Below are positions 1,024 through 19,096 of a DNA stretch of 23,691 nucleotides, piece by piece; position 1 is the stretch's first letter; each line of letters begins with the position of its first letter. The DNA lies in the IMG/VR virus record IMGVR_UViG_3300025736_000207, positions 1-23,691 of that record; one strand, written 5' to 3'. The stretch comes from a virus. Below the pieces are notes generated by a model. It did not search any database and was not told the DNA's origin. It saw only the letters and a list, made by a program, of their open reading frames with translations. A program made the position numbers and the translations under genes.

Positions 1024-1992
1024 CTAATATTCAACATCCCCATGTATTGGTACGTAGTTATCAGATGTTTCACCATCTGCGAGTTCTCTCACCTTCTCTA
1101 ATGTCATTGTCCAACTACGTGAACGTGGTGTCACCGTTTTATAACTAAAATTTTTTATTATATATATTGCATGAATGCAATCACCTAATCCTGCAACTAT
1201 AACTTTTTCGTTGTTATGTGACATTTCCATAATAAACCTGAATTTATTTGTAAATTTCATATTGAAATATAAATTAAACGGTGCACATTTACCAAAACAC
1301 ATGCCAACATATTCAGAATCGCAAGTTGCATGTTCTATCCCATGTAAAATTAATGGTTGACTATTGATACCATCATCATTAATAGCATAATTACCAGACC
1401 AGAAGTTGAAACGATTTATGTTTTTACTAATGCTATTATCTTCACCGTTCTCTAATGGCATTTTAAGATCAACTGTGTAGGAGTACCCTCTTATTTCAAA
1501 CGTATTACAACTACCACATCCTGTATCATCATATGTCACACGTATTTCTATTTTAAAAGCAAACAACCCACCATCACCTGCATCAACAATAACTGCTTCA
1601 ACATCACAATCAAGGAAGTGTAAATTATCCCACGTCCATGTTGTAGGGGCATGTGTATCATTTGTTATGTCTTGCCATGCACTCCACACTTTTGCAGTAG
1701 CACTATTTACAATGTCGTGATTATCACCATCGCCATCTGAAAATACGGGTCGAAGTCTTATATTACTATTTGAATAATTCGCTGTTTCCATATGTAAAAC
1801 TCGAAGTTCAACTTTTGATATCGGATATCCTTTATCTCTTGGTACTGTGTTGGTGTTGCATAATTGGATATCTCCATTTGTCCATGTTTGTCCAGCGGTA
1901 GCTTCATCACCATCTACCATATCTTCTGGTCTCGTTGTCCATTCTTCCCCCCCGATATCATAAGCATCAAAGTAATATGTTACTGTGGTCAT
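1024..1992 (-). CDS. Tail-tip protein: beta-sandwich domain plus shared C-terminal domain
   Basis: The protein has 322 aa. The N-terminal half has the pattern W-T-R-PEDMVDGDEATAG, then PISKVELRVL, then TWTWDNLHFLD, like a single copy of the module that is doubled in the neighbouring 473-aa protein. The C-terminal part (around the NFWSG motif, then VIVAGLGDC, then IYIIKNFSYK) matches the C-terminal domain of the same neighbour (NFWSG, ISLSGLGYND, VKIISFGWKK). The two genes are therefore probably paralogues by duplication. The start at 1992 overlaps the preceding stop by ATGA and has GGAG upstream, indicating translational coupling; an ATG nine codons earlier is not needed. Likely a virion protein at the tail tip; the specific role is not known. 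Confidence 0.82.
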   Translation of the reverse strand: MTTVTYYFDAYDIGGEEWTTRPEDMVDGDEATAGQTWTNGDIQLCNTNTVPRDKGYPISKVELRVLHMETANYSNSNIRLRPVFSDGDGDNHDIVNSATAKVWSAWQDITNDTHAPTTWTWDNLHFLDCDVEAVIVDAGDGGLFAFKIEIRVTYDDTGCGSCNTFEIRGYSYTVDLKMPLENGEDNSISKNINRFNFWSGNYAINDDGINSQPLILHGIEHATCDSEYVGMCFGKCAPFNLYFNMKFTNKFRFIMEMSHNNEKVIVAGLGDCIHAIYIIKNFSYKTVTPRSRSWTMTLEKVRELADGETSDNYVPIHGDVEY

Positions 1993-3410
1993 TGTGCAAA
2001 CTCCAATTCTAAAATCCATTCATATGCTAATGGCTTATCATGCATTTTTTTCCATCCGAAACTAATAATTTTAACTTCTCTATCATAATCATTATAACCT
2101 AATCCAGATAATGAAATAGTTATACCACTTTCTGCAATCGTTCTTACATATTCAATGGTATCACATGCATCATCAGCATATAATTTACCTGTCATAACCA
2201 TTGTTCTATTATTTCTTGATAAACCGTAGACAGCACGCCTACCCGACCAGAAATTTAGCATCTTAACATTTTGTGCATGGTCAACTGATATTTCTTCTGG
2301 TTTATCCATCGTACATGCTGTTGGTGGTATTGTATAATTAACTCTTGCATAACATTGTGTTGTACGAATTTCTGTTGAGGTTAAACCATGATAATCTACA
2401 AGTAAATATAATTGTGTACCTTTATGCATTCCAGATGGACGTTGTGTATTATAGTGAAACCACATACCAATTTGTAGATTATCTATATCTGTCCATTCCC
2501 ATGCTGCGGAATCATCAGGATTTTTATTCCAAATATATGCCTCGGTATTATAACCCATTAATAAATACCATCCATTCCCACTTTCCCAAGCGTTTGAATT
2601 TCCATTGAATGATTGAGTTCCATCAATTTTTATAACAGCTTTTGCCCACTTTCCTTCATTAGGATTGGATGTCGTTCTAAATCTCATAAATAATGATACG
2701 CTATCGATTGTACCAACTTCTGTTGTGTGATTTGGTATTGTATATAAATCATATCTATCACCAAGTAAAGCACCACCTTGATAGGCATATGTTATATCTT
2801 CATCTGGTGACTCCTCGTCAACACATTCCCAATTATTAGCAGCACCACTAGCACCTAGACTACCACTACCTAATGAAAATGCATCACCAGCACCATTTGG
2901 TCTAAATATGGATTGTAATGCACCAATTACTGATGGGCTACTACATTCGGTTCCAATTTGTAAATTATCTATATCACCCCATGACCATTCTGCATCTGTT
3001 CTAGGGTTTGTTAACCACACATTGTTATATGTATTATATGAAGTTGTTAAATCTATATCATCTGATTTATAAATATTTGCACAGGCATCATCTGTTATTA
3101 ATATTTTATAGATACCGTCAATGCTTTGGCCTAAGGGTGTTGCTTTACCCCTTGATAATACTTGAACATAATTAATCGTACCACTTTCAGTTGTATGATT
3201 AGGTAATGCATATAAATCATATTGTGCATTAGTTGCATTACTATATACATAAGTTCCATCATCATCTGGAATTGCAATTGTATCATCAACACACTCCCAA
3301 TTTGCTACATCACCCACTGGTGTAAGTTGTGTTGCACATCCAGCACCATTCGGAATGAAATATGAATTATATGTAATTCCTTCTGTAGGTGTAATTATAA
3401 ATGTTCCCAT
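1989..3410 (-). CDS. Large modular tail-tip/adhesin protein with two lectin-like repeats
   Basis: This is a 473-aa protein. Two related modules are visible, about residues 18-153 and 168-315. Each holds F-PNGAG, NWECVD, an acidic stretch, YDLY-(A/T)IPNHTTE-GTI, a K-I strand and W-W-DIDNLQIG. The pattern suggests a jelly-roll or concanavalin-like beta-sandwich, which is inference. The last ~100 residues form a different domain (LNFWSGRRAVYGL, MVMTGKLYADD, SLSGLGYND, VKIISFGWKK) that is shared with the C-terminal part of the next gene and may be the tail-attachment part. The start at 3410 has AGGT upstream and lies 8 nt after the previous stop. Probably exposed on the virion and involved in host recognition; no enzyme motif is seen. 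Confidence 0.85.
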   Translation of the reverse strand: MGTFIITPTEGITYNSYFIPNGAGCATQLTPVGDVANWECVDDTIAIPDDDGTYVYSNATNAQYDLYALPNHTTESGTINYVQVLSRGKATPLGQSIDGIYKILITDDACANIYKSDDIDLTTSYNTYNNVWLTNPRTDAEWSWGDIDNLQIGTECSSPSVIGALQSIFRPNGAGDAFSLGSGSLGASGAANNWECVDEESPDEDITYAYQGGALLGDRYDLYTIPNHTTEVGTIDSVSLFMRFRTTSNPNEGKWAKAVIKIDGTQSFNGNSNAWESGNGWYLLMGYNTEAYIWNKNPDDSAAWEWTDIDNLQIGMWFHYNTQRPSGMHKGTQLYLLVDYHGLTSTEIRTTQCYARVNYTIPPTACTMDKPEEISVDHAQNVKMLNFWSGRRAVYGLSRNNRTMVMTGKLYADDACDTIEYVRTIAESGITISLSGLGYNDYDREVKIISFGWKKMHDKPLAYEWILELEFAQ

Positions 3411-4501: not shown

Positions 4502-7500
4502 CTATCTACTCCTAAAACGGGTACTTCCATTTTTATTTAAAACTCTTGAATTTTTAGCAGAAGATAATAATGCACCTAATTTTTCAACATCATTAATTTC
4601 AGCAATTTCTTTAACATCTATTGTAAGATTTTGAATAATAATACCGCCATTGCCATCAGCTTTTGTACTATCACCTGCTGGAACTATCTTTTCGTGTTTA
4701 TGTACATTGACCATTCCATCTTCGGGAACATTATATGTACCACGTTTCCAATTTATCTTAGTACCAATTTTATATTTTGTTATTCCGGCAAGTATCGCCT
4801 TAGCCGTTGATGAATAGCCATATATCCGCTCTTTTCCACTACTAGATGATACATATAATTGATGCCGTTTAACGGTTGCACGTACAATTCTATATGATGG
4901 TGTTGGTGTTGTACTTCCACCTGAACCACCTTTTTTTGTGGTTGGTGCTGAAACTTCTCCACTTGCTTGAAATTCTCTAAGTCTTTCAAGTGCCGAAATT
5001 GCTTCATCAGATGCGTTAATACCATATAGTTCTTTATACATTTCAGCAGTTTCGGGTCTATCTGCAATTGATTTTAATAATTCAACATATATTTCATTTT
5101 CAGAAAGTAACGCTGCATTTTCTGTTACTGTCCAACCAGTATATTTTTCAAGTAAATTGTGTTTTTCTGTATATGCAACTTCTAAATCAGCAATTTCATC
5201 ATCACGAATGTCCTTTAATAAACCTAAATTAAACTTCGCTCTATCAGTATATTCATCCAATATTTCTTTTGCTGCATCATACTCTGTTTTTAATTCATCT
5301 AAATGTTCATCTTCCATTTTGACTTCAAGGTCAACGGTATTTTGTAGTTGGTCAATTTTCCATCCAGCATTTTCAATTTCAATTTTTTTAATTGCCCTTT
5401 CTTCGCTACGTGTTTGCCCTCTACGTCTCATCATACCTCTAAGTTGTATCTTCATTATTTCAAGGTTGTTCTTACGCATAGCTTTAGCAATTTCATCATT
5501 TGCTTGTTTAAGTGCAACAGTTTCTTTTGCAGCATCTTTACTTGCTGCACTATAATCATGCATTGTGTTAATAATATCTTCCATCGAACCATCATATTTT
5601 TCAATGCCACCTATCATATTCCATATATCTTCATCAAACCATTCAATAGATGAAAATTCATCGCCATATTTAATTGCCATATTTGAAAAGTTACTGAACC
5701 TATCAAAAAAAACTTCACTTTCTTTAGTGTCAATTTGCCATCGTAATTTACCAGTAAAACTTTGTCCACTCATTGCAGTATATGTTTGTTCAACGCTAGT
5801 TCTCAATCCTGTCATTGCATGTTCTAATTCTATTATGTTTGTTTGATGTGCACTAATTGATTGTGATAAATCATCCAATCCAGATGACATATAATCAAAT
5901 GCTGGTTGTAATGATTCTTGTGTTGCTATAATTGTAGCCATTTCAGCATCATAATCTTTTAATAAATCATTAACCCTTGTGAGTTCTGTACTCATGTCAC
6001 CCCAATATGCTGCTGTACCATCAGGTAATGTATATACCTTACCTATCTCTTTTGGTGCATTAACATATGGTTCTAATGTCATTTTTTTCAATAATAACTT
6101 TGCAATTTTTCCACCTTTAATTCTTTTTTCACCTTCAAGTTCAAGATATTGATTAACTTGATCCCAAGGAACTAATTTATCTACAAATGCTTTAACTGGT
6201 ACTGCATCTACCATCATATCAAGTGGATTAATAGCCATATTATTAAATGTGGATAATACATTTTCTTTTATATTTGGAAATATTGTTTCAATTTTAGGAG
6301 ATGTTAACTCTGTCATCAATGTACCTTTACCAGCAAGTGCATTTTGCGTTTGAAATAATGCAAGATATGATGCATTTAAACCAGCAACCCTTTCATCAAA
6401 ATCGGAAAGTGCTTTACTTGCATCACCACCAGATGCTAATGTACCCCACCATAGTTGACTTTTTTTCCACCACATATCAACACCTGACCATGCAGAACCT
6501 ATACTTCTTTCAAGACGTTCCATAGAATTTGCAAGAATGTCTACCTGCATCTGTGATACATTTGTCATCTTTGCCATAGCAGATTCCGTTTGACCTGCTG
6601 CATGTTGCATGAAACCTAAATCTTCGGTCATTCCAGCAATACCTTCATCACTCGTTACTGCCATTACAACACGCAATGAACGCATATTTCTAATCATTTC
6701 AGGTAAAATTGTTGCACTGTTTTCATCAACTGCACGATTTAATTCTTTCATGAATCCAGTTAATCCTTTAACACGCAATGCTAATCCACTCATATCGACA
6801 TTATACTTCCTTGCCGCATCTGCTGCTTGCTGTGTTGGTGATACAATACTTTGAATTGTTAAAGCTAAACCTCTTGATGCCATATCAACATGCAAACCCA
6901 TACGAGTAACCGTTGAAAGTATAGCTGCAATCTCATCAAATGCAACACCAGCAGCAGATGCTATTGGTGTAATATATCCAAGTGCGGATGCTAAATCTTC
7001 AAAAACAAGTTTACCACGCCTAACTGTTTGAAAAAATACATCTGAAATATGTTGTGCTTGTGATACTGTCATACCGTAAGCATTTAAAACGGAAGTAAAA
7101 ATATCAACGGAAGTTGAAACATCAGCTAATCCGGCTATTGATGCCTTTGTTGCAGTTGATAACAACCGCATAGCATCACTTGCACTAAATGCAGCAGATA
7201 AAATATCATATAAACCTTTAGCCATATCGGTTGCAGATTTACCGAATCGAACAGATAATGATTCAACACCAGCGGTAAGACCAGGCATAGCACCTGTTGT
7301 TAAATCACCAATAATTGTTGAAACTTCTGCCATTTTCTTTTCAAAAGCACGAAATTTTGTTATTGATTCTCCTATCCAGGCAATAAGTTTTTGTTGTGCA
7401 CCCATTACTTGACCAAGCACCATGTTATACCCAACGAATCTAAGTGCTAAACCACCCATACCACTACCTAATTTATTAACTGAACCAGTTTGTGTTTTTA

Positions 7501-7694: not shown

Positions 7695-8263
7695 TTATTT
7701 TCCTTGTTCTTTCTTTCTAGTATCAATCATCTTCTGTTGTGATTTGCTAATTTTACTTTGCGTTGTTTTCCCACTAGATGATTTATTTTTATCACTAACA
7801 TATTCAGTTATTTTTGCAAAATCCCAATATGATAAATTATCAATGTCATCCATAGTGTGACCTACCATAAACAATTCACTTCTCCATGATAGCATGTTGT
7901 CTAATTTATCACTAGGGAATAATTCTACTTTGATTGTTTGGGGTTCTTCCCCTTCCGAAAATCCTTTTTTTCTTGTACGATAATACCACGTTTACCTTGT
8001 AGGTATACGGCAGCGAATAATGCTATTTTATCGTCAGGATGCATGTCTTTAAGGTCATCTTCCGTGACATTTGCATCAATTTCACGCAACCCTTTAAGGA
8101 TTATAAAGTTATGGTATTTTACTTCCAATTCTTTTTCTGGTAGTTTATCTTCAAATTTAGCAGTTTCCTTCAAAACTTCCTCTTGCTTTCTAACTGTCCA
8201 AGTACTTAACTCAAACGGCTTTCCCTTTAGTACAAAGGGTACATTATATTTTGTTTTTTTCAT
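7695..8263 (-). CDS. Tail assembly chaperone, frameshifted long form (gpG-T-like)
   Basis: The second open frame (to 7695) has no well-placed ribosome site at its first ATG (7895), but it is open upstream to the region where the gpG frame still runs. Slippage by -1 on A AAA AAG (7970 to 7964) after codon 100 gives QEKK-GFSEGEEPQTIKVEL and then SDKLDNMLSWRSELF up to the stop at 7695, a 189-aa fusion. The T part resembles the usual helical extension (LSWRSELFMVGHTMDDI, SYWDFAKITEYV) with a basic, Ser/Lys-rich tail that could contact the tape measure. The arrangement is the same as in lambda G/G-T and many siphoviruses. The amount of shifted product cannot be judged from sequence. Confidence 0.82.
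7925..8263 (-). CDS. Tail assembly chaperone, short form (gpG-like)
   Basis: This 112-aa protein lies just before the tape measure gene, the standard place of the chaperone that binds nascent tape measure protein. It is mostly helical and charged and ends VQEKKDFRKGKNPKQSK. GAGGT lies 8 nt before the ATG at 8263, which also follows the tRNA-like element at 8279-8332. The function is assigned from synteny and from the frameshift signal near its 3' end, because these chaperones are poorly conserved in sequence. A small share of ribosomes would shift at 7964-7970 to make the long form. Confidence 0.85.
   Translation of the reverse strand: MKKTKYNVPFVLKGKPFELSTWTVRKQEEVLKETAKFEDKLPEKELEVKYHNFIILKGLREIDANVTEDDLKDMHPDDKIALFAAVYLQGKRGIIVQEKKDFRKGKNPKQSK
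7940..7970 (-). promoter_or_regulatory. -1 programmed frameshift site (A AAA AAG) with small hairpin
   Basis: On the minus strand the gpG frame reads GAA AAA AAG, which contains the classical slippery heptamer A AAA AAG at 7970-7964. Eleven nt further a short GC hairpin, GGGG-AAGAA-CCCC (7952-7940), could act as a weak stimulator. The -1 frame is open from here through the second chaperone ORF. The heptamer is certain in the sequence; its use is inferred from the conserved G/G-T arrangement. Confidence 0.85.
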
Positions 8264-8278
8264 TTAAATACCTCTTAG

Positions 8279-8332
8279 TGGGCAAGTTCGGAATTGAACC
8301 GACAAGGATTAGCCAAATTTCTCCACAAGCCC
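8279..8332 (-). ncRNA. tRNA-like element 1: acceptor, D arm and T arm, no anticodon arm
   Basis: Read on the minus strand, this 54-nt element starts GGGCTTG and ends CTTGCCC plus a discriminator A; the acceptor pairs in 5 of 7 positions, with two central U-U mismatches. A D-arm-like hairpin follows (GGA/TCC stem at 8324-8306, loop GAAATTTGGCTAA with the GG and flanking A expected of a D loop). Then, after only UU, comes a T arm (TCGG-TTCAATT-CCGA, 8302-8288) with the canonical B box GGTTCAATTCC. There is no anticodon arm. It lies in the leader of the tail chaperone gene, just after a terminator-like hairpin. A degenerate tRNA remnant is the main alternative. Confidence 0.6.
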
Positions 8333-8334
8333 AT

Positions 8335-8368
8335 ATTAAAAATAAAGAAAAGAGAAATTAATCTCTTT
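8335..8368 (-). terminator. Intrinsic-type terminator after the tail tube gene
   Basis: The minus strand has the stem AAAGAGA/TCTCTTT (7 bp, 6-nt AT loop) starting at the tail tube stop codon, followed by TTCTTTATTTTT (8347-8336). Archaeal termination mainly needs the T-rich tract, which is present; the hairpin may also protect the mRNA 3' end. Downstream genes in the same direction imply partial read-through. Confidence 0.6.
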
Positions 8369-9269
8369 ATGGTTTTGCACTAACGACATTGCTACATTCG
8401 CTAGCATTTGATGGGCGACTTTTAAACGGTGCACTATCTGCCATTTCATCACCGGAAATATTTATGTCAAATTCACCAGATTTCCACTTACAATTTGGTA
8501 ATGTAAGACGTGGGCAACCTTTACCACCTAAATCAACAATAACGTCAAATTCTGTTTGATTAATTACTTCTGCCCAATGAACTCCACCACCTTCATCTAA
8601 TGAAATGTCTATTGTACCATCAATATCTCTAGCACCTTCAATGCAAAACTGTTTCACTAATGAATCGTGATCCCACTTATCTGTAAGATTATGCTCGAAT
8701 GTAATATCAATAGAATCCACGATGTATGCGAAGTCACCACCATCTTTTGCGATTGCACCTGCCCTATGAAATGACAAAAAATCACCAGTTAATGCCGTTG
8801 GTGCCACACCAGTTGCAGCAATTGAAGTTGTTGTACTTTTAACTGAAAAATCAACTGATATGATATACTCAGTATTGAAACTTCCAGTAACTTTTACTGT
8901 TTTTGCTTTACAACCTATCATGTTAAAATAGGTTTTATCCGCAGCAACAATGTTTGCGTTAGTGCCTAATTCAAAATATAATGATTGTAATTTACCCTCT
9001 GCTGTTCTATCAATAACATCATCAATCAGTGTATCATCACATTGCGGTATGTATTCCAAATGGAATATTGGATCAGTACATTGTTCAAGAAGATGACACG
9101 CACCGGGCGAATCTATACCTCTTAACACTTTATGCTTATCATTAATTCCTGGTCTTGCATCTAAAACTTTACATGAAACGGGAAGTGTTGAACCACTTAT
9201 ACCGCCACCATACGTAGCCTCAACCCAATACCAGATTGTTCCCCTAAAGGGAAGTCCTAACTCAGAAAT
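8367..9269 (-). CDS. Major tail (tube) protein with apparent AUU start
   Basis: The protein has about 300 aa and precedes the chaperone pair, the usual place of the tail tube gene. The first GTG in frame is at 9128, but the frame is open further upstream and encodes plausible structural sequence (ELGLPFRGTIWYWVEATYGG and then LPVSCKVLDARPG), so the true N-terminus lies near 9269. No ATG, GTG or TTG exists there. An AUU at 9269 sits 5 nt behind a perfect GGTGAT (9280-9275), the same site and spacing as in other genes here, so it is the best start candidate. Alternatives are a +1 shift from the short ORF 9318-9262 or a one-base error in a TTT run. The middle is beta-rich with a Gly/Asp-rich end, as expected of tube proteins. 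A terminator follows. Confidence 0.78.
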   Translation of the reverse strand: MSELGLPFRGTIWYWVEATYGGGISGSTLPVSCKVLDARPGINDKHKVLRGIDSPGACHLLEQCTDPIFHLEYIPQCDDTLIDDVIDRTAEGKLQSLYFELGTNANIVAADKTYFNMIGCKAKTVKVTGSFNTEYIISVDFSVKSTTTSIAATGVAPTALTGDFLSFHRAGAIAKDGGDFAYIVDSIDITFEHNLTDKWDHDSLVKQFCIEGARDIDGTIDISLDEGGGVHWAEVINQTEFDVIVDLGGKGCPRLTLPNCKWKSGEFDINISGDEMADSAPFKSRPSNASECSNVVSAKP

Positions 9270-9318
9270 AAGACATCACCCATTCGTTAATTTTATTCAT
9301 TTTATTCATTTTTTTCAT
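9262..9318 (-). CDS. Short ORF (18 aa) overlapping the start of the tail tube gene
   Basis: An ATG at 9318 overlaps the HNH stop as ATGA, and the frame reads MKKMNKMNKINEWVMSYF before TGA at 9262. It contains a tandem repeat of ATGAATAAAA. It could be a coupling leader peptide that brings ribosomes to the tail tube start, or the real N-terminus of the tail tube protein split by a one-base frameshift: +1 after TTC gives MSYF-ELGLPF, and loss of one T would give MSYSELGLPF. It is also possibly non-coding. Confidence 0.4.
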   Translation of the reverse strand: MKKMNKMNKINEWVMSYF

Positions 9319-9701
9319 TCTCCATTATTTTTATTTTTATTTTCGTTATAATGTAATTCACGATGACAGTTTGAACATATTAAAATACACTTATTCAATT
9401 CATTAGCAATTCGTATTACATTATTTCTCATTGATCTCATATCTATTTTAAACTTTTTATCTTCTGGACTGACATGGTGAAAATCAAGTGCCCAATCACA
9501 TTTATTATAACCACAAATAGCACATCCATTAATTTTTAAGTTGTGCAATGTTTGTATATCTTCTGTTTTATGTTTCAAATATCTCAAATGGTCATAACTG
9601 ATAATTTTATCAATATTATGCTTTCTATATGATTTAACATTGTTTTTAATATGTTCCTTATGCTTTTGATAATATCGTTTATCATCATCTTGTTTTGTCA
9701 T
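9315..9701 (-). CDS. HNH endonuclease (homing-type, 128 aa)
   Basis: The C-terminal half shows the HNH zinc-finger pattern: CAICG, then LDFHHVSPEDKKF, then ILICSNCHRELH, giving two Cys pairs and the catalytic His region. The N-terminal half is basic and helical (DDDKRYYQKHKEHIKNN), typical of DNA contact regions of phage HNH enzymes. It sits between two structural genes and is very rich in Lys and Asn, suggesting a mobile free-standing homing endonuclease. The start at 9701 follows the previous stop as TAATATG but has no clear ribosome site. Its insertion may explain the disturbed start of the tail tube gene downstream. Confidence 0.88.
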   Translation of the reverse strand: MTKQDDDKRYYQKHKEHIKNNVKSYRKHNIDKIISYDHLRYLKHKTEDIQTLHNLKINGCAICGYNKCDWALDFHHVSPEDKKFKIDMRSMRNNVIRIANELNKCILICSNCHRELHYNENKNKNNGE

Positions 9702-9702
9702 A

Positions 9703-10194
9703 TTAGCACGCATCATTGTTCTCTGCCGTTAATTCAAGTATCCAATGAAACATTGTTTCCTCACATCTTCCTTCTATTACTAATCTTCCTTCATTCCAAA
9801 CATTCATAAAGAATATTCCATCGGTTGCACCCTGATATGTTCTAACATAGTTAACAATTGCATCTGCAACTTTTTTACCAAATGAAGTAACGTCAATACC
9901 TTCTGCATCGTTAAATGTAATATCAACGCTAATTAATGCTTTATATTTTCTAACGGATGCATTAATATTGTGTGGATCAGCTTTAATTGACAATAAATCT
10001 AATCGTATAAACGGTGCTGCTGGACAATTAAGTTCAACTTTTTCACCTATCAACATTGGAACATTTACCGTATCACCACTACCATTTGTTACGGATATAC
10101 ATAATTGCATCTCATCATCAATTAAATGATTTGTACCAATTTTTGTACGAATGATTTTTCTAGGATCAATCCCATCAAATACACTAAACACCAT
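9703..10194 (-). CDS. Putative tail terminator / tail completion protein
   Basis: The protein has 163 aa: a beta-rich beginning (MQLCISVTNG, VELNCPAAPFIRLDLL) and then ALISVDITFNDAEG, FGKKVADAIVNYV and a final strand pair (RLVIEGRCEETMFHWILEL). The alternating alpha/beta layout and the place between the connector and the tail tube gene fit tail terminator or neck proteins. Identity is by synteny and overall pattern only. The start shares its A with the previous stop (TAATG). The HNH gene directly follows. Confidence 0.65.
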   Translation of the reverse strand: MVFSVFDGIDPRKIIRTKIGTNHLIDDEMQLCISVTNGSGDTVNVPMLIGEKVELNCPAAPFIRLDLLSIKADPHNINASVRKYKALISVDITFNDAEGIDVTSFGKKVADAIVNYVRTYQGATDGIFFMNVWNEGRLVIEGRCEETMFHWILELTAENNDAC

Positions 10195-11237
10195 TATCTG
10201 CCACTTCCTATATTTGGTTTTGAAATTGATTCAATTGTTGTAATATATCTATTCCATAATCTGTCAGTAAATGAAACCCTACCCCTTTCATCGCATCCTG
10301 TAACTTTCTTAGATGATAGATTTGATATAGTTGCAATTTCGAACGATGCAAGAAGTACAACAGCTTTTTTAAACAGTTGCTCGTTGTATGACTCCCATGT
10401 CGAATAATAGTTTACAAATATTCCCTCATTGCTTGCCGGAATTGCTGTAACACAATCAGCTTGATACACTTTGATATGTCCACATGTTGCATCAACAACC
10501 TCAACAGCGATATTTGAACATACACCATCGCCATCTTTCCATATGCCACATATATCATTTTGACATTCTTCCAATGCATCATCACATTCGCAACCATGCA
10601 CATTACCGTCAAGTTGTAAATCCATTATTGGTGTAGTATCTAACTGGTACCCGTCACTACATATGGGTGACGATTCTGTCGATATACAACCACCACATTC
10701 TGCATTAGAACTACATTGGCACGTGCCATCGACACATCTGCATAACTTTTCATGATAATGATACTCAGCTATTCTTTGTATAACTTCCTTAAATGAGTTC
10801 CAAGCAATTAATGCTACATCAGCATCTGATATTTTCTTTTTTGTTTGTTGTGAATATATCCTAATTTCGTCTATTATGTTCCAAGGCAATACGAAAAATT
10901 TTTCAGTAAATGTTGACGTATCCGCACCATCAATCGCCTTAACAACTATGTCATATTCACCATAAACTGCCGTATCAGATAACAAATATGAATATGAATA
11001 AACACCAGAACTTGAACTTGCCATAGATGCAGAATTTACAAGTACCGTATCGCATGGTGATGTAATAGTTATTGATACAGATGAGGGGTCAGTCAATGCT
11101 TCGGCTGTATCTCTTAATGTAACTTGATGAAATACTGATTCTCCACGTTCAAATATTGCCATGATATCATTTCCGTAATTTTTTTTACTAACTGTAACTT
11201 TTGTGCTTATTAATGGATCTGCCGTTAATTTTGTCAT
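10194..11237 (-). CDS. Cys-rich head-tail connector candidate with Ig-like N-terminal domain
   Basis: The protein has 347 aa. Residues ~15-120 look Ig-like (SVSITITSPCDTVLVN, then GVYSYSYLLSDTAVYGEYDIVVKA). A helical segment follows (WNIIDEIRIYSQQTKKKISDADVALIAWNSFKEVIQRIAEY) like the helices of gp6-type connectors. Next is an insert with 14 of the protein's 16 cysteines (CRCVDGTCQCSSNAECGGC and CECDDALEECQNDICG), then more helix (LFKKAVVLLASFEIATI). The position after capsid and before tail terminator supports a connector role. The start at 11237 overlaps the previous stop (TAATG) and has AAGGG upstream. The Cys-rich insert is unusual for a neck protein and could be a disulfide-rich or metal-binding loop. 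Confidence 0.65.
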   Translation of the reverse strand: MTKLTADPLISTKVTVSKKNYGNDIMAIFERGESVFHQVTLRDTAEALTDPSSVSITITSPCDTVLVNSASMASSSSGVYSYSYLLSDTAVYGEYDIVVKAIDGADTSTFTEKFFVLPWNIIDEIRIYSQQTKKKISDADVALIAWNSFKEVIQRIAEYHYHEKLCRCVDGTCQCSSNAECGGCISTESSPICSDGYQLDTTPIMDLQLDGNVHGCECDDALEECQNDICGIWKDGDGVCSNIAVEVVDATCGHIKVYQADCVTAIPASNEGIFVNYYSTWESYNEQLFKKAVVLLASFEIATISNLSSKKVTGCDERGRVSFTDRLWNRYITTIESISKPNIGSGR

Positions 11238-11920
11238 TATAACCCTTCCCAAAATTTAGGAATGTTTTTCTGATATCTGAAAATTCCTAATGCAAACTTA
11301 AATGCATGATAAAATGCAATAAGTTCGTCATATGATTTTTCTACTATTTTCATTTTACCGTCACGAATTTGCAAAACAACCGCACCATCTAACTTCACAC
11401 CAGTCATAAGTTCAAATGTAAATACATAAGCTGCAAGTTGTATAAAGAAATCGTTGTAAACTGTTTTGCTTGATTTCCAATCAAATATAACATGTGCATC
11501 TTTACCTAGTTTTTTTAAATCAGCACGACCTATAAAATCGGCAGTACCAGCAAAACCTAAGTGGCTATTCCATACTTTTTGTTCTAGTGCCTCGGCCCTA
11601 ATGTTATATTTTTCTTTTGCAATATTGAACAGTCTCAATGATTCTTGCATTTCATCACTATACTTTGATGCATCAACACTATGACCTTGTAAAGATACTT
11701 CAATTAACTTATGTAGGTTTGTACCAAAAGTACCACGTATTTTCATTATTTTGTTTGCCTCAAACTGTCCAATACTTGCACGCCAGTAATTTAATCCTGG
11801 CTGGTTGATTGAACTTTTAACTCTAGTAATTCTGAAATATTTTTTACCTTCTATTGTATATGAATCAGAATCAACTAGAAGTTCTAATGGAACATCTATT
11901 TTCCACGATTTATTTAACAT
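11237..11920 (-). CDS. PD-(D/E)XK nuclease, Cas4/RecB-like
   Basis: In this 227-aa protein (from the ATG at 11920) the motif order is G-LH near residues 66-70 (GTNLHKLIE), GTADFIG with Asp128, VIFDWKSSK with Asp147 and Lys149, then QLAAY (Gln161, Tyr165). This is the arrangement of RecB/Cas4-family nucleases. The four cysteines of a Cas4 iron-sulfur cluster are not seen. It may process viral DNA during recombination or packaging. It is oddly placed between capsid and connector genes and behind its own terminator and tRNA-like element. Start: the ATG at 11920 has no Shine-Dalgarno, but it is 1 nt from the end of that element; an in-frame ATG at 11950 lies inside the T arm and has no ribosome site either. 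Confidence 0.83.
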   Translation of the reverse strand: MLNKSWKIDVPLELLVDSDSYTIEGKKYFRITRVKSSINQPGLNYWRASIGQFEANKIMKIRGTFGTNLHKLIEVSLQGHSVDASKYSDEMQESLRLFNIAKEKYNIRAEALEQKVWNSHLGFAGTADFIGRADLKKLGKDAHVIFDWKSSKTVYNDFFIQLAAYVFTFELMTGVKLDGAVVLQIRDGKMKIVEKSYDELIAFYHAFKFALGIFRYQKNIPKFWEGL

Positions 11921-11921
11921 A

Positions 11922-11970
11922 TTTCTATTCCAGGATTTGAACCTGTACATACCAAAAATAAAAAATAGAG
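11922..11970 (-). ncRNA. tRNA-like element 2 ahead of the nuclease gene
   Basis: The minus strand carries a T arm CAGG-TTCAAAT-CCTG (11945-11931) with the exact B box GGTTCAAATCC. The following AATAGAA (11929-11923) pairs with CTCTATT (11970-11964) in 6 of 7 positions, as an acceptor stem would. Between them lies TTTTTGGTATG, with the GG of a D loop but no clear D stem, and there is no anticodon arm. The 5' acceptor strand overlaps the T-rich tract of the capsid terminator. If the element were cut after the discriminator A (11922), the nuclease mRNA would begin U-AUG. The acceptor pairing is AT-rich and could be chance; the T arm is clear. Confidence 0.5.
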
Positions 11971-11991
11971 AGAAGGTAGGAAAAACCTACC
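11954..11991 (-). terminator. Terminator after the major capsid gene
   Basis: A perfect 6-bp stem GGTAGG-TTTTT-CCTACC (11991-11975) is followed by TTCTCTCTATTTTTTATTTTT. It begins 14 nt after the capsid stop. It would limit transcription beyond the most strongly needed gene and stabilise its mRNA end. Confidence 0.75.
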
Positions 11992-12004
11992 GTGTCACTC
12001 ATGC

Positions 12005-13309
12005 TCAAGGATTGACCACATGTCCGATTGCACCGGTATCAAGTGCACCAATTGCGAGATATGACCTCATGACTAATTTTGTACTGTCACATTCAATTGG
12101 GTCTTTATCTGTTAATAGGTGTGGTCTTTTACCGTATGCTTCACCAATTGCACGTTCAGGGTCAACCATAACCGCAGCTACACCACCTAATGCGAAATCA
12201 TCACAAGAGTTTGCACCGCAGTATTCAATAACTTTTATGTTACCAATTTTAACTAGGGTGTTTCCTTCCATTTCAATTTCATTTGCCCAAGGTGGCATTG
12301 TACCGCCCTCTTTGTATTTAAGGTATGTTGCGACTCTTGGATTTAAGATTAGGAAAAATCCTTTGCTACCATATCCAGCGTTACGCATTTGTGCTTCCAG
12401 TTCAATTACTTCTTTGTACAACTGAGCACCGTACATACAACACTCGGTAGATGGTGCCGCAGGGTTACATGATAATGATACCTCAGATGTTTCAGTATAT
12501 CCAGGTGTTGCATCGCTCATTGCAGTCCAAATCAAACTATCAATACCAGAAATAAATGCTCGACTCATTGATTCTATAATTGCCGCCTTAACTGAATCAC
12601 CAACGTCAAATACATCAAGTTCACAAAGAACCTTGTAAATATCATATCGTGCTAATGTTAATGTGTGTGTTGTAAATACGTTAGATGAACAGCTTGCACA
12701 TTCACATTTTGATAATGCACTACCCATTGAACTTGCGTTTATCGTTTTTATTTGAACAGATAAACCGTTACCTGCATTTATATCACATGCCCTTTGCGTA
12801 ACGATACCAGATAATTGTTTACCGCACTGCGCTGCTTGCCAAATTAAATCACAATAAACATCGGCAGGCGACCATGCACTCATGTCATCATCACAACCGG
12901 TATCTGAATCCGAAAATGCAAATCCAAGTTCATCTGTCACAAGAGCAACTTGGTTATATGAAACCCTATCAATGGCTTTTCCTTTCAAATACTGCGCATG
13001 AAAAGATTCCCATTTCCCTTCCGGTATCCCTTTCGTTGTATCACCTGCATTTAAATCCGGTGACTGCTCACTGGTATCTTGCAAATTGTATTTTTTTGCC
13101 ATTGCCGCTTCAAACTCTTCACGTTCGTTTATTTTATCAGCTTCAATTTTATCGGCTGCAATTTTTGCTTTTTCTGCGTCTACTGCATTTGCTTGTGCAA
13201 CTATGTCAGCTTCTAACGCTACCGTTTTAGCTAACATTGCAGTTTTATACCTTGCCTCAACTTCTGCAAGGGTTTCTTCATCATTTGTCATGTCTATCCT
13301 ATTCTCCAT
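12005..13309 (-). CDS. Major capsid protein (HK97-like) with N-terminal coiled coil
   Basis: The protein has 434 aa. Residues ~8-75 are Ala/Glu/Lys-rich coiled coil (LAEVEARYKTAMLAKTVALE and so on), like the delta/scaffold domain of HK97 capsid proteins, so no separate scaffold gene is needed. The rest has the HK97-like pattern with VKAAIIESMSRAFISGIDSLIW, KGFFLILNPRVATYLKYKEGG and a C-terminal VMVDPERAIGEAYGKRP. The gene follows the protease gene and precedes a terminator, both expected. It holds 14 cysteines, with clusters KCECASC and ECCMYG, which is unusual for a capsid and suggests disulfides or metal sites. Start: the ATG at 13309 has AAGGA upstream but overlaps the protease gene by 11 nt; the ATG at 13291 (MTNDEE) with AGGAT is equally good. 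Confidence 0.87.
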   Translation of the reverse strand: MENRIDMTNDEETLAEVEARYKTAMLAKTVALEADIVAQANAVDAEKAKIAADKIEADKINEREEFEAAMAKKYNLQDTSEQSPDLNAGDTTKGIPEGKWESFHAQYLKGKAIDRVSYNQVALVTDELGFAFSDSDTGCDDDMSAWSPADVYCDLIWQAAQCGKQLSGIVTQRACDINAGNGLSVQIKTINASSMGSALSKCECASCSSNVFTTHTLTLARYDIYKVLCELDVFDVGDSVKAAIIESMSRAFISGIDSLIWTAMSDATPGYTETSEVSLSCNPAAPSTECCMYGAQLYKEVIELEAQMRNAGYGSKGFFLILNPRVATYLKYKEGGTMPPWANEIEMEGNTLVKIGNIKVIEYCGANSCDDFALGGVAAVMVDPERAIGEAYGKRPHLLTDKDPIECDSTKLVMRSYLAIGALDTGAIGHVVNP

Positions 13310-14072
13310 TTATATCCTTAATTCTATTTTTATAAAATTCTATTTTTTGTTTACTTTCTTTTGTTTGCTTTTCTACTTCTTTCATATCCACATTTTCATA
13401 TGGATCATTAATTTCTTCTATTGTATCAGTTGTTGACTTACCATTTTCAATTCCGCATCCATCCATATCATTACATGCGCCCATTGTTACGGTTGAAACC
13501 ATGAATGGTTGTATATCCTTAAAGCATGGAACTAAATCATCTGCTTTATAGCCATTATGACTATATCCGCTACCTTTTGGTAAATCTCTAGCTTGTATGT
13601 ATTCAACTTGTGCAAATACATACATACTTACATTTGGTGTTCTACCTATTTTTGATGATATGTTAACATAATTTTCCCAATCTTTATATCGTGGTGCAGC
13701 TTTTTCAATATGCACTTGTGCACGAACTTCACCAGTTTTTTCATCATATAATGCGTTATCTTGCCATCCAACGAAATATGATATATCAGGTGGCATTGAT
13801 TCAAACATGCTTATCTGATAACCACTTCCCATATGATTTAAATCATGTAATGTGTTGTTGAATCCCTTATGTGCTAATTTAAGTTCTTTTTTTGATATAA
13901 ACACATCCCTCATAAATCTGTCACCTATTGCAATGACTACGTTATGACCATCATCGCTTATCGCTTTTTCAATAAATTTTTCATAACCAGAGTTAATTGA
14001 TTTGACCCGTGGAGTAATTGCATCGAATTTGAATTTGTAAAATTTTCCTTTTTCATATTTTTTATTAGACAT
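13299..14072 (-). CDS. Capsid maturation (prohead) protease
   Basis: The 257-aa protein lies directly upstream of the capsid gene. It has the order seen in HK97-type serine proteases: a His region TLHDLNHMGSGY (His76/His80), a Ser strand TPNVSMYVFAQVEY (Ser149), and a following strand FMVSTVTMGACNDMDG. The C-terminal tail (from ~residue 205) is charged and helical and may be a scaffold-like or self-cleaved part. It would trim the capsid coiled coil during head maturation. The start at 14072 has GTGAT three nt before ATG, as in several genes here. Catalytic residues are assigned by pattern only. Confidence 0.78.
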   Translation of the reverse strand: MSNKKYEKGKFYKFKFDAITPRVKSINSGYEKFIEKAISDDGHNVVIAIGDRFMRDVFISKKELKLAHKGFNNTLHDLNHMGSGYQISMFESMPPDISYFVGWQDNALYDEKTGEVRAQVHIEKAAPRYKDWENYVNISSKIGRTPNVSMYVFAQVEYIQARDLPKGSGYSHNGYKADDLVPCFKDIQPFMVSTVTMGACNDMDGCGIENGKSTTDTIEEINDPYENVDMKEVEKQTKESKQKIEFYKNRIKDINGE

Positions 14073-14084
14073 ATAATCACTTTT

Positions 14085-14882
14085 CTATTTTTTTTTATTT
14101 AAATCATGTTCTTGCTTTGCTGGCACCATACGTCTTTCAACAACTGAATGTGCATATATTGGAATCTTACCTTCGTCACGTTGTTTTTTCGTTAAAATCC
14201 TACTACGATCCCACACATTAACATACCAGTCATTCGGTTCTATGATATACCTTGCAATTGCAACACGTAATTCTTTTCTCGATATTTTATCCAAAATCCA
14301 AAAGAACGGATCACGATACGCTGTATCCAAATACACTACATATAGTAAAAATTCAACCAACTTTATGCATTTACCATATTCTGCATCCGATAATTCTTTA
14401 TCCATTGAATCTGAAAGCACCGAATGTATAAACGAAATTGCATCGTTACTACAATCGGATAATAAATCGTGTGCCATATTCAAAGAGTACATCCTTTCTT
14501 TGAAAATTTTATCGGAAGTTTTTAATAATATTTTCAATACCGATTTATCCAATAGGTTAAATGATTTATAGCTTTCTATTGTTACATCATAACCATAAAA
14601 TTGTGTTAATACCTCAGATAATATCTTTGAATATTTATCATGTTTACAGCAAATTGCCAATCCAACATCCATCGTGCATTTTATGACATCTGTCTGCCAT
14701 GAATTTGTAATTTTATCTGCTGCATCATATATAACTGAAATCAAATCAACTATCTCTTTATCCGGATGAGACATTAAATAAGTATGACATGACGCAGAAT
14801 CTAATCCGGCAATACGCAACGGTATAGACTTCATTAAGCATCGTGTTATGCCCTTTTCCCTTTCAACGTTGATTATATCCAT
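14085..14882 (-). CDS. Hypothetical helical protein (265 aa) in the head module
   Basis: The family is not recognised. The sequence is almost entirely helical and contains several Cys and many hydrophobic heptads (KCIKLVEFLLYVVYLDTAYR, FFWILDKISRKELRVAIARY). There is no signal peptide; the hydrophobic stretch is too short and charged at its flanks to be a clear membrane segment. It ends with a basic tail (QEHDLNKKK). It starts 5 nt after the 228-aa gene and ends 12 nt before the protease, so it is part of the head operon. It could be an internal head, chaperone or host-interaction protein. Confidence 0.72.
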   Translation of the reverse strand: MDIINVEREKGITRCLMKSIPLRIAGLDSASCHTYLMSHPDKEIVDLISVIYDAADKITNSWQTDVIKCTMDVGLAICCKHDKYSKILSEVLTQFYGYDVTIESYKSFNLLDKSVLKILLKTSDKIFKERMYSLNMAHDLLSDCSNDAISFIHSVLSDSMDKELSDAEYGKCIKLVEFLLYVVYLDTAYRDPFFWILDKISRKELRVAIARYIIEPNDWYVNVWDRSRILTKKQRDEGKIPIYAHSVVERRMVPAKQEHDLNKKK

Positions 14883-14887
14883 TGTGA

Positions 14888-15574
14888 CTACTTTGCCTTT
14901 TTTACAGATTTACAACTTTTGCACTCGCATGTTGATTCTTTAATCTTTTTTGCAGCATTTTCATCAATTTTCTTTTTGATGCCTTTTACAAAATCTCTAT
15001 CTTTTTGTGTCATCTTATCTGCTGCTTTTTCAAATATTACCTGTTCTGCTGATTTTGATGATTTAATTGCTCTATCGCCACGTATTTTTGATAAATCATC
15101 AGATGGTGCCCGTTTTAAAAGTTGGTCAAGTAATGATCTTAAATTTTTCATACTGTCAATATATTCATCATATCTCTGCGACAGTTGTCCTTTTGAAATA
15201 ATATTTGCTTGTTTTAGTGTTTCAACTTCACCCGTTATTTTTTTTGCAACATCCTTCATATCATTTAGAGGTAGAAATAAATTAGCCGTAACTTTTTGCA
15301 TTGCAGCACCTTTTATTTTACCATCCAACATTGCTTGTGCAACCTCATTACCTTTTTGGACACTTGTATCGGTATCAATACATTGCTTTAAAAGGCCAGC
15401 TACATTGTTGCTTAATGTAACCATTTCTTTAAATCTGTTAACATCATTGGTATTCAATGTTCGTATTGGATAGTTTTTAAATAATTCTGTTCTAGTTGTT
15501 AATGGTTTTGGTATAGATTCAACTGCTTTTTTTGCTGGTTGTATATTTGAACGTGCACGACTTCCTTTTGCCAT
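14888..15574 (-). CDS. Hypothetical coiled-coil protein with C-terminal Cys motif (228 aa)
   Basis: The protein is Lys-rich and helical. It begins MAKGSRARSNIQPAKKA, has long amphipathic helices (MVTLSNNVAGLLKQCI, LFLPLNDMKDVAKKITGEVE, YIDSMKNLRSLLDQLLK) and ends with a CECKSCKS cluster that could bind a metal. The start at 15574 has GAGGTG upstream and follows the previous stop by one base (TGATATG). It may be a DNA-binding packaging factor or an internal head protein; both are guesses. No known family is recognised. Confidence 0.75.
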   Translation of the reverse strand: MAKGSRARSNIQPAKKAVESIPKPLTTRTELFKNYPIRTLNTNDVNRFKEMVTLSNNVAGLLKQCIDTDTSVQKGNEVAQAMLDGKIKGAAMQKVTANLFLPLNDMKDVAKKITGEVETLKQANIISKGQLSQRYDEYIDSMKNLRSLLDQLLKRAPSDDLSKIRGDRAIKSSKSAEQVIFEKAADKMTQKDRDFVKGIKKKIDENAAKKIKESTCECKSCKSVKKAK

Positions 15575-15575
15575 A

Positions 15576-15740
15576 TCATGCACCTCGTGTATTTAGATAT
15601 TTGGCTAGATTTTTAACCTGTTCGGCATTAAAAGGAATTTGCGTTTTGCCTTCTATTATATACATTATTCCTTTTTTTGTATCTTCCTTAATTTGCGGAC
15701 AACAATTCTTTCTACCACATAGACTTATCACATTACTCAT
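15576..15740 (-). CDS. Small CGRxxCCP protein (54 aa)
   Basis: This short protein begins MSNVISLCGRKNCCPQIKED and ends with a helix (FNAEQVKNLAKYLNTRGA). The CGR-CCP cluster followed by a small beta part and a helix is a pattern I associate with small phage proteins of unknown role; the three cysteines suggest a metal site. GGAG lies 10 nt upstream of the ATG at 15740, which is preferred over an in-frame ATG at 15821 lying inside the previous gene and across the tRNA-like element. It overlaps nothing and is followed by the 228-aa gene after 1 nt. Confidence 0.72.
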   Translation of the reverse strand: MSNVISLCGRKNCCPQIKEDTKKGIMYIIEGKTQIPFNAEQVKNLAKYLNTRGA

Positions 15741-15766
15741 TTTACATTTCTCCTTTTTTAATATTA

Positions 15767-15802
15767 GGGTATGGGAGGGAATCGAACCCTCAACATCACA
15801 CC
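15767..15802 (-). ncRNA. tRNA-like element 3: acceptor/T-arm minihelix
   Basis: The minus strand has a perfect T arm GAGGG-TTCGATT-CCCTC (15791-15775) with the B box GGTTCGATTCC. The next seven bases CCATACC pair with GGTGTGA (15802-15796) in 6 of 7 positions including one G-U, leaving only TGTT as a linker. This forms an acceptor/T-arm minihelix of 36 nt without D or anticodon arms. It starts 2 nt after the stop of the gp10-like gene and lies in the leader of the 54-aa gene. Confidence 0.58.
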
Positions 15803-15804
15803 AT

Positions 15805-16200
15805 TTATTTATTAAATCCAATAAATAGTCTCTTTATCCTATCTGAAAATGCTTCATTCATAAGAAACAACGCTGGCCTCATGAACGGCCTAAATGCTGG
15901 TTTACCGGATGTACTTGTTACAGCTTTTGGTGATTCTGGTGTTCCAACTTTCATATACATTGTGCCATATTCTTGATAAATTGCCCAAGGAACGCCAACG
16001 ATAATTTTAAAACCAGCGACACCCATTTTTACATATTTTATCGAGTTACTCATTTCACCTTTATCGACAGCGGCATATCTGCGCATTAATGAAACTGTAT
16101 CTTTCACAATCCCTTCATGTATATTTACATATTCCGAAGTCTTTGCCACCTTTTTATTAAATCGAATTGCACCATACAATCCAGTAACTTTTAAACTCAT
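15805..16200 (-). CDS. HK97-gp10-like protein (tail/neck completion)
   Basis: The 131-aa protein shows the typical gp10-family end: VPWAIYQEYGTMYMKVGTPE, then KPAFRPFMRPALFLMNEAF. The N-terminal part is helical (EGIVKDTVSLMRRYAAVDKG). Members are neck or tail-completion proteins in HK97-like viruses. Here it lies next to the portal instead of after the capsid gene, an unusual order. The start overlaps the portal stop by ATGA with GAGGA upstream. A tRNA-like element follows the stop by 2 nt. Confidence 0.82.
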   Translation of the reverse strand: MSLKVTGLYGAIRFNKKVAKTSEYVNIHEGIVKDTVSLMRRYAAVDKGEMSNSIKYVKMGVAGFKIIVGVPWAIYQEYGTMYMKVGTPESPKAVTSTSGKPAFRPFMRPALFLMNEAFSDRIKRLFIGFNK

Positions 16201-19080: not shown

Positions 19081-19096
19081 TATATAAACCTTTCGG
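19081..19096 (-). promoter_or_regulatory. Late-block promoter (BRE + TATA, minus strand)
   Basis: The minus strand reads CCGAAAGGTTTATATA: a purine-rich BRE followed by TATA box TTTATATA, a textbook archaeal promoter. It is 60 nt upstream of the terminase start, with predicted initiation near 19058. GAAAGGTTTATATA recurs exactly at 22714-22727 on the plus strand. Confidence 0.8.

Follow-up and report, generated by a model that had tools for sequence, protein, structure and literature searches.

Three tRNA-like elements in the late gene block

The window analyzed here is a stretch of 23,691 bases from an IMG/VR virus record (IMGVR_UViG_3300025736_000207), in which genes for TerL, portal, exonuclease and metallophosphoesterase can be identified and whose late block is encoded on the minus strand. 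Three gaps between the late genes (8264-8366, 11921-12004 and 15741-15804) each hold a short minus-strand element resembling part of a tRNA, here named E1, E2 and E3, respectively (Table 1). A first-pass annotation of the window had described these as the only gaps longer than 40 nucleotides (nt) in the block. The three pairs of coordinates are correct, but about 57 nt of true gap also remain within 9129-9314, an interval left free under start-codon-based gene calling that is mostly the 5' part of the putative tail gene, where a homologous reading frame extends upstream without an ATG.

The T-arm motif GGTTCRANNCC has exactly three matches in the window, all on the minus strand (8290-8300, 11933-11943 and 15778-15788), and an exact scan of both strands gave no others, in agreement with the first-pass annotation, which had two of the positions right and ended the middle one at 11942. 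That annotation had put the chance expectation at 0.36 matches, assuming equal bases; dinucleotide shuffles contain 0.17 on average, and none of 100 shuffles reached three. With one mismatch allowed there were 8 matches against 4.7 expected, so that only the exact T-arm is informative.

All three elements have a candidate acceptor stem and a paired T-stem, and inspection of the structures found an anticodon arm in none of them, as had been noted at the outset. In E1 the acceptor pairs at 5 of 7 positions and the T-stem at 4 of 5, with a 22-nt linker containing GGA..TCC and GG; E2 pairs at 7/7 and 4/5, with a 10-nt linker (TTTGGTATGT); and E3, which begins 2 nt past the stop codon of the upstream gene, pairs at 6/7 and 5/5. 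The elements thus show an acceptor stem and a T-arm with a TTCRANN loop in tRNA register, and lack the anticodon arm and cloverleaf of a tRNA. ARAGORN called no tRNA at E1-E3 and none of the Rfam models applied recognizes them, the closest being sub-threshold T-arm matches confined to E3 (tmRNA, 14.5 bits; RF00005, the tRNA family, 13.4 bits). When structures are predicted from folding energy only, the tRNA-like fold is obtained for E3 and for the reduced element of one relative, G008 (see below).

Table 1. Positions of the tRNA-like elements and of associated features in the window
Feature	Position	Strand	Remarks
Gene downstream of E1	7925..8263	-	GAGGT Shine-Dalgarno in the 15-nt leader past the discriminator
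E1, reduced tRNA	8279..8332	-	Acceptor GGGCTTG/CTTGCCC; T-arm GTCGG TTCAATT CCGAA; discriminator A
Hairpin AAAGAGATTAATTTCTCTTT and U-rich tract	8333..8368	-	Behind the putative tail gene, directly ahead of E1
Putative major tail protein gene, upstream of E1	8367..9257	-	Named by position; frame extends upstream of GTG 9128
Exonuclease-like gene (phrog_298), downstream of E2	11237..11920	-	Start codon 1 nt past the E2 discriminator
E2, minimal tRNA-like element	11922..11963	-	Acceptor TTTTATT/AATAGAA; T-arm ACAGG TTCAAAT CCTGG; discriminator A
Hairpin GGTAGGTTTTTCCTACC and U-rich tract	11957..11991	-	Behind the putative capsid gene; tract doubles as 5' acceptor strand of E2
Putative major capsid protein gene, upstream of E2	12005..13309	-	Named by size and position
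Small gene downstream of E3	15576..15740	-	AGGAG Shine-Dalgarno in the leader
E3, minimal tRNA-like element	15767..15802	-	Acceptor GGTGTG/CATACC (6 bp); T-arm GAGGG TTCGATT CCCTC
Gene upstream of E3	15805..16200	-	From reading-frame calling and comparison with relatives
Archaeal-type promoter, B recognition element (BRE) and TATA box (CCGAAAGGTTTATATA)	19081..19096	-	Upstream of TerL; marks the late operon

Complete and shrunken tRNAs in related viruses

Searches with TerL and the tail protein recovered about 45 IMG/VR contigs (working labels beginning with G or L), which form a collinear family from many metagenomes. The window, G001, G008 and L005 all have a BRE/TATA box of the type CCGAAA-N2-TTTATATA upstream of TerL; on this promoter evidence the host of the window virus is archaeal, which bears out what the first-pass annotation had assumed. 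The relatives' tRNA-Thr has a U73 discriminator, which we take to be likewise archaeal in type. In a search for cultured relatives, the capsid, tail and portal proteins of the window and one further late protein (1989-3410) had no match among 50,697 phage records, and a scan of genome contigs with the capsid and TerL alignments, aimed at a proviral host, found no relative.

The closest relative, G001 (IMGVR_UViG_3300033145_000588; TerL 85%), has a complete tRNA-Ala(UGC) at the E1 gap and a complete tRNA-Thr(UGU) at the E2 gap. G011, G012 and L191 likewise have a complete tRNA-Thr in the E2 gap behind the capsid gene, and in G008 the same tRNA is cut down to 45 nt with both ends retained. The 5' end of E1 in the window has the same sequence as that of the G001 tRNA-Ala, and this 5' end is shared by the E1 element of L188, which has kept a D-arm and lost the anticodon arm. 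The E3 gap of G001 (8932, minus strand) contains a minimal element wholly different in sequence from that of the window, with a 7-bp acceptor and a 5-bp T-stem both intact; a second syntenic counterpart of E3 is found in L051 (3963, plus strand). Shrunken forms of 36-57 nt occur in many relatives, and in L170, L184, L192, L195 and L200 the E1 and E2 gaps are each occupied by an element about 43 nt long. This 43-nt class consists of a TTCTTTC-like acceptor strand, the linker GTGGGAATNNN, a T-arm with TTCRACT and a GAAAGAA-like acceptor strand, and in several cases the 5' acceptor strand is the U-tract behind the upstream gene. Taken together, the elements are best read as tRNAs in reduced form that can take the place of complete tRNA genes and follow a hairpin and U-tract, both conserved.

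Other tRNA-like stretches were noticed as well. A weak tRNA (29.3 bits) lies outside the late block in L138 (13507-13578; G008 33507-33578, minus strand), in the same layout as the late elements, i.e. hairpin, U-tract, tRNA-like element and then CT-ATG. Behind the tail gene of L210 (9230-9320) is a tRNA-like element for which ARAGORN made no call; its acceptor is perfect, its variable arm is long, and its anticodon may be CUA (amber). Longer elements behind the capsid gene of L148 (6855-6963; G013) and L193 (6260-6410) have in common a GGGTCATGGTTA...CTCA-CCCCC core between acceptor and T-arm; they may be tRNAs whose variable arm is unusual or long. In L182, where additional genes separate capsid and exonuclease, a tRNA-Ser(ACU)-like call lies upstream of the exonuclease gene (7376-7453).

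Conservation of the acceptor and T-stem

A search of 108 unique gaps found 23 tRNA T-arms in sense orientation and a single one in antisense, while 59 permuted loops gave a mean of 1.0 in the same gaps, the sole high one (11) overlapping the real loop. In 17 shrunken elements, read in a fixed register that is independent of any alignment fit, the T-stem pairs at 4.82 of 5 positions against 3.01 with redealt partners (0 of 5000 as high). The acceptor pairs at 6.53 of 7 positions against 5.31 (likewise 0 of 5000), and the linker has GG in 16 of the 17 against 9.2 in shuffles.

By the criterion of the first-pass annotation, its reading would have been refuted if relatives lacked the elements or showed no compensatory changes in the stems; it passed this test. 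Relatives carry the elements in the same gaps, and in a model alignment of 13 rows, which are related and whose fit leans towards structure, 98.7% of cells are paired and two-sided changes occur at 12 of 12 base pairs, with a covariation score of 0.880 against 0.273 in shuffles; slid partners pair at 65% at most. The tRNA-like top half is therefore a conserved RNA structure, as in t-elements, and the uncompensated loss of pairing that marks a pseudogene is not seen in the shrunken forms, window E1 alone being partly mismatched. A covariance model (R1) built from eight elements of the 43-nt class and no window sequence finds E2 of the window (24.4 bits, E 0.011 in 912 kb), and also L192 E1 (45.4 bits; outside the training set), L206 E2 and the E2 element of the L200 contig.

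Hairpins and start-codon spacing

A hairpin followed by a U-tract is present at the E1 gap in 38 of 40 relatives (5.8 expected by shuffling) and at the E2 gap in 29 of 35 (6.6 expected), and behind the gene upstream of E3 in only 2 of 33. Terminator-like signals of the putative tail and capsid genes thus immediately precede E1 and E2, a placement that E3 does not share; at the E1 and E2 gaps the sequence has the G+C hairpin and following U-tract of an intrinsic terminator behind a gene.

The distance from the discriminator to the next ATG has two peaks. In 13 elements the ATG follows after 1-2 nt, none of them with a Shine-Dalgarno sequence outside the element; in 14 it follows after 12-29 nt, 13 of these having one; and no element has it at 3-11 nt. 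This spacing fits a 5' end at the discriminator, giving either a leaderless message or room for a full leader. No BRE/TATA box was found in the three gaps of the window.

As regards the neighboring genes, the putative major capsid protein had no family match, and its gene is conserved and collinear among the relatives. The tail gene of the window (8367-9257, 9258-9314) has no in-frame ATG, while that of G001 has one (MAELGLPFRG...), and a tiny reading frame ahead of it (MNKMNKINEW...) has a counterpart in G001; the missing ATG would reflect either a non-standard start or a frameshift. An HNH-like gene (window 9315-9716; L045 1297-1626 and L046 10744-11091) changes place: it lies between other late genes in the window and, in G001, directly past the tRNA-Ala with its start codon 2 nt from the discriminator, a second G001 copy lying near another T-arm element (30508).

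Proposed function and alternative explanations

Our preferred explanation, which we consider probable, is that the elements are tRNAs stripped to the half recognized by RNase P and tRNase Z, and that they serve to process late mRNA in the manner of archaeal t-elements. Archaeal RNase P gauges the 12-bp stack of acceptor and T-stem, and the TpsiC and D loops are where its T-loop anchor stacks (PMC6565675). In haloarchaea, both RNase P and tRNase Z cleave t-elements, the latter making the 5' end of 5S rRNA (PMC4326828). The viral elements retain the 12-bp stack, the T-loop and a linker GG that resembles the D-loop GG meeting the T-loop. A polycistronic late transcript would read through the hairpin and U-tract of the tail and capsid genes, and the retained half (coaxial 7-bp acceptor and 5-bp T-stem, T-loop, short linker with D-loop-like GG) would fold as a tRNA elbow. 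A tRNase Z cut past the discriminator would then give the downstream mRNA its 5' end, with either no leader or a short one containing a Shine-Dalgarno sequence, and a 5' cut by RNase P at E1 and E2 would probably leave capsid and tail mRNAs ending in their own hairpins. We infer 3' processing for all elements and 5' processing for E1 and E2, together with a benefit of the cuts to the virus. For E3 of G001 and L051, a 3' cut alone is more likely, because the 5' acceptor strand extends into the region of the upstream gene's stop codon. The first-pass annotation had proposed processing marks separating the late mRNAs. The complete tRNAs in the family, the retained stack, T-loop and GG, and the two-peaked start spacing all fit that idea, but a role as general or required separators is not supported by the relatives.

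Several observations weigh against processing of this kind. Most relatives have the hairpin alone at a gap and no element, T-arms of at least 4 bp being present, as an upper limit, in 10 of 40 E1, 17 of 35 E2 and 3 of 33 E3 gaps; with so patchy a presence the element must be dispensable. The upstream reading frame ends within the 5' acceptor strand of E3 in G001 and L051, and a 5' cut at that site would deprive it of its stop codon. Folding by energy only misses the tRNA-like fold of E1, E2 and several minimal forms; the acceptor of E1 has two U-U mismatches and its T-stem one mismatch. Finally, some leaderless cases have Shine-Dalgarno-like purines in the paired 3' strand (for example GAAAGGA in L170).

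The patchiness is also what would be expected if the elements were simply decaying tRNA genes, i.e. if tRNA-Ala and tRNA-Thr had once been used in translation and the remnants in the window were functionless. Complete tRNAs do occur in the same gaps of relatives, presence changes at least 10 times (E2) and at least 6 times (E1) on the tail-protein tree, and the mismatched E1 of the window has lost the G3:U70 pair, which we take to be the alanine determinant and which is retained in G001. Decay would not, however, spare one half of the molecule, and the acceptor and T-stem have stayed paired through the two-sided changes described above. The five viruses of the 43-nt class, which are diverged, have minimal forms at both gaps, and T-loop, linker GG and start-codon spacing all persist, so we regard mere decay as unlikely. 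That the T-arms are chance sequences in AT-rich gaps agrees with the unremarkable number of one-mismatch matches, but is refuted by the exact matches, the synteny, the covariation and the R1 match obtained without the window in training, and is scarcely credible.

Two further explanations keep a function without processing of the mRNA as its purpose. The helix might act in cis as a translation switch that hides or presents the downstream start region without being cleaved; the start codon does adjoin the 3' strand in 13 cases, and L170, L184 and L192 have purine-rich, Shine-Dalgarno-like letters in the paired strand. We nevertheless find this improbable, since the start codon lies outside in 14 cases, mostly with its own Shine-Dalgarno sequence, about half of the leaderless cases have no such sequence even inside the element, and a switch leaves the tRNA T-loop, the GG and the replacement by complete tRNAs unexplained. 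Still less probable is a released RNA acting in trans as a decoy, for example against a tRNA-directed host defense or for a tRNA-binding enzyme, with the operon site merely ensuring high expression. The position behind the putative capsid and tail genes, which are likely the most expressed, would suit such a role, and phage tRNAs can reportedly counter defenses (PMC11555353). Against it, the elements have no anticodon arm as a target for anticodon nucleases, their acceptor sequences vary freely, nothing beyond the elbow is conserved and the start-codon spacing points to a role in cis.

Three other ideas were rejected. As for the T-arm motif being a B box of a promoter of the RNA polymerase III type, the window's gaps have no BRE/TATA box, and the B box is, to our knowledge, not an archaeal promoter signal. 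Remnants of attachment (att) sites for integration do not fit three sites per genome, complete tRNAs with conserved neighbors and the lack of any integrase noticed. A link to homing endonucleases is not general: an HNH gene lies by the tRNA-Ala of G001 and near the L193 element, but not beside the elements of the window.

If mRNA processing by the elements holds, the turning of a tRNA gene into a processing signal can be seen in stages, from complete tRNAs through forms without an anticodon arm to acceptor and T-arm only. Cleavage, if true, would extend the punctuation of mRNA by tRNA, best known from mitochondria, to archaeal viruses, would supply archaeal RNase P and tRNase Z with minimal substrates of natural origin, and would explain a route to leaderless mRNAs within an operon.

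Occurrence outside the family

When 2.9 million viral contigs were scanned for TGGGAATNNNNNNNGTTCRACTC, 24 stretches were recovered; nearly all of those from the family pair, and most of the others do not. L299, L302, L303, L307-L311, L313, L314, L316 and L318-L321 were dismissed as chance (T-stem 2-4 of 5, acceptor 2-4 of 7), and L301 as a phage with a tRNA array. L312 (IMGVR_UViG_3300027276_000218), an unrelated phage with a major head protein of phrog_371, has a hairpin and a minimal tRNA-like element right behind the head-protein gene (2058-2130, minus strand), reading TGAATCC ATGGGAATAAG CCGGG TTCAACT CCCGG C GGATTCA (model E 4.4e-7). It is probably a phage of gut bacteria, since its nearest head-protein relatives come from human feces; a 53% relative of this protein has the hairpin and no element. 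The best Rfam match of L312 is RF01684 (27.4 bits, E 0.18), below the gathering score of 42.5. A metagenomic RNA motif, Mu-gpT-DE, reportedly lies downstream of Mu gpT-like capsid genes; no Rfam family of that name matched L312. Either the element moves between viruses or it arose twice in the same setting.

This occurrence raises the possibility, which we put forward tentatively, of an undescribed class of minimal tRNA-like processing marks in archaeal tailed viruses and at least one unrelated gut phage. A viral tRNA gene would lose its decoding half and stay behind the capsid and tail genes, where cuts by RNase P and tRNase Z of the host would free downstream mRNAs with a short leader or none. 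In the 43-nt form, the minimal RNase P substrate known as a synthetic construct would then have its counterpart in nature.

Comparison with known systems

Literature searches on viral tRNA punctuation returned nothing for viruses of prokaryotes. In tailed viruses, tRNA genes are usually clustered and complete. The elements share their origin with such genes, as relatives with a complete tRNA-Thr or tRNA-Ala in the corresponding gaps indicate, but are single, reduced and placed behind terminator-like hairpins. The t-elements upstream of 5S rRNA in Haloferax volcanii (PMC4326828) are likewise archaeal, tRNA-like and situated beside another RNA. They define the end of their neighbor through cleavage by tRNase Z and RNase P, as the viral elements would; the haloarchaeal ones serve rRNA and a synthetic CRISPR RNA (crRNA), whereas the viral elements lie between mRNAs and swap with complete tRNA genes. 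The viral elements moreover have no anticodon arm, and most also have no D-arm. Model RNase P substrates consisting of acceptor stem, T-stem and T-loop (PMC11143913) have the same minimal architecture, but are synthetic, whereas the viral elements would be natural and have a linker of 4-25 nt, mostly with GG. The mascRNA/menRNA family (RF01684) is likewise a tRNA-like element at a transcript end, for processing and not decoding; it occurs on eukaryotic long RNAs, and the elements of the window and its family do not match it. In the punctuation of mitochondrial transcripts, too, tRNAs lie between protein genes and the start codon can follow directly past the tRNA 3' end. Mitochondrial tRNAs decode and sit between many genes, whereas the viral elements occupy two or three gaps and many are non-decoding; as in mitochondria, processing at the 3' end of the tRNA-like structure would give the next mRNA its 5' end.

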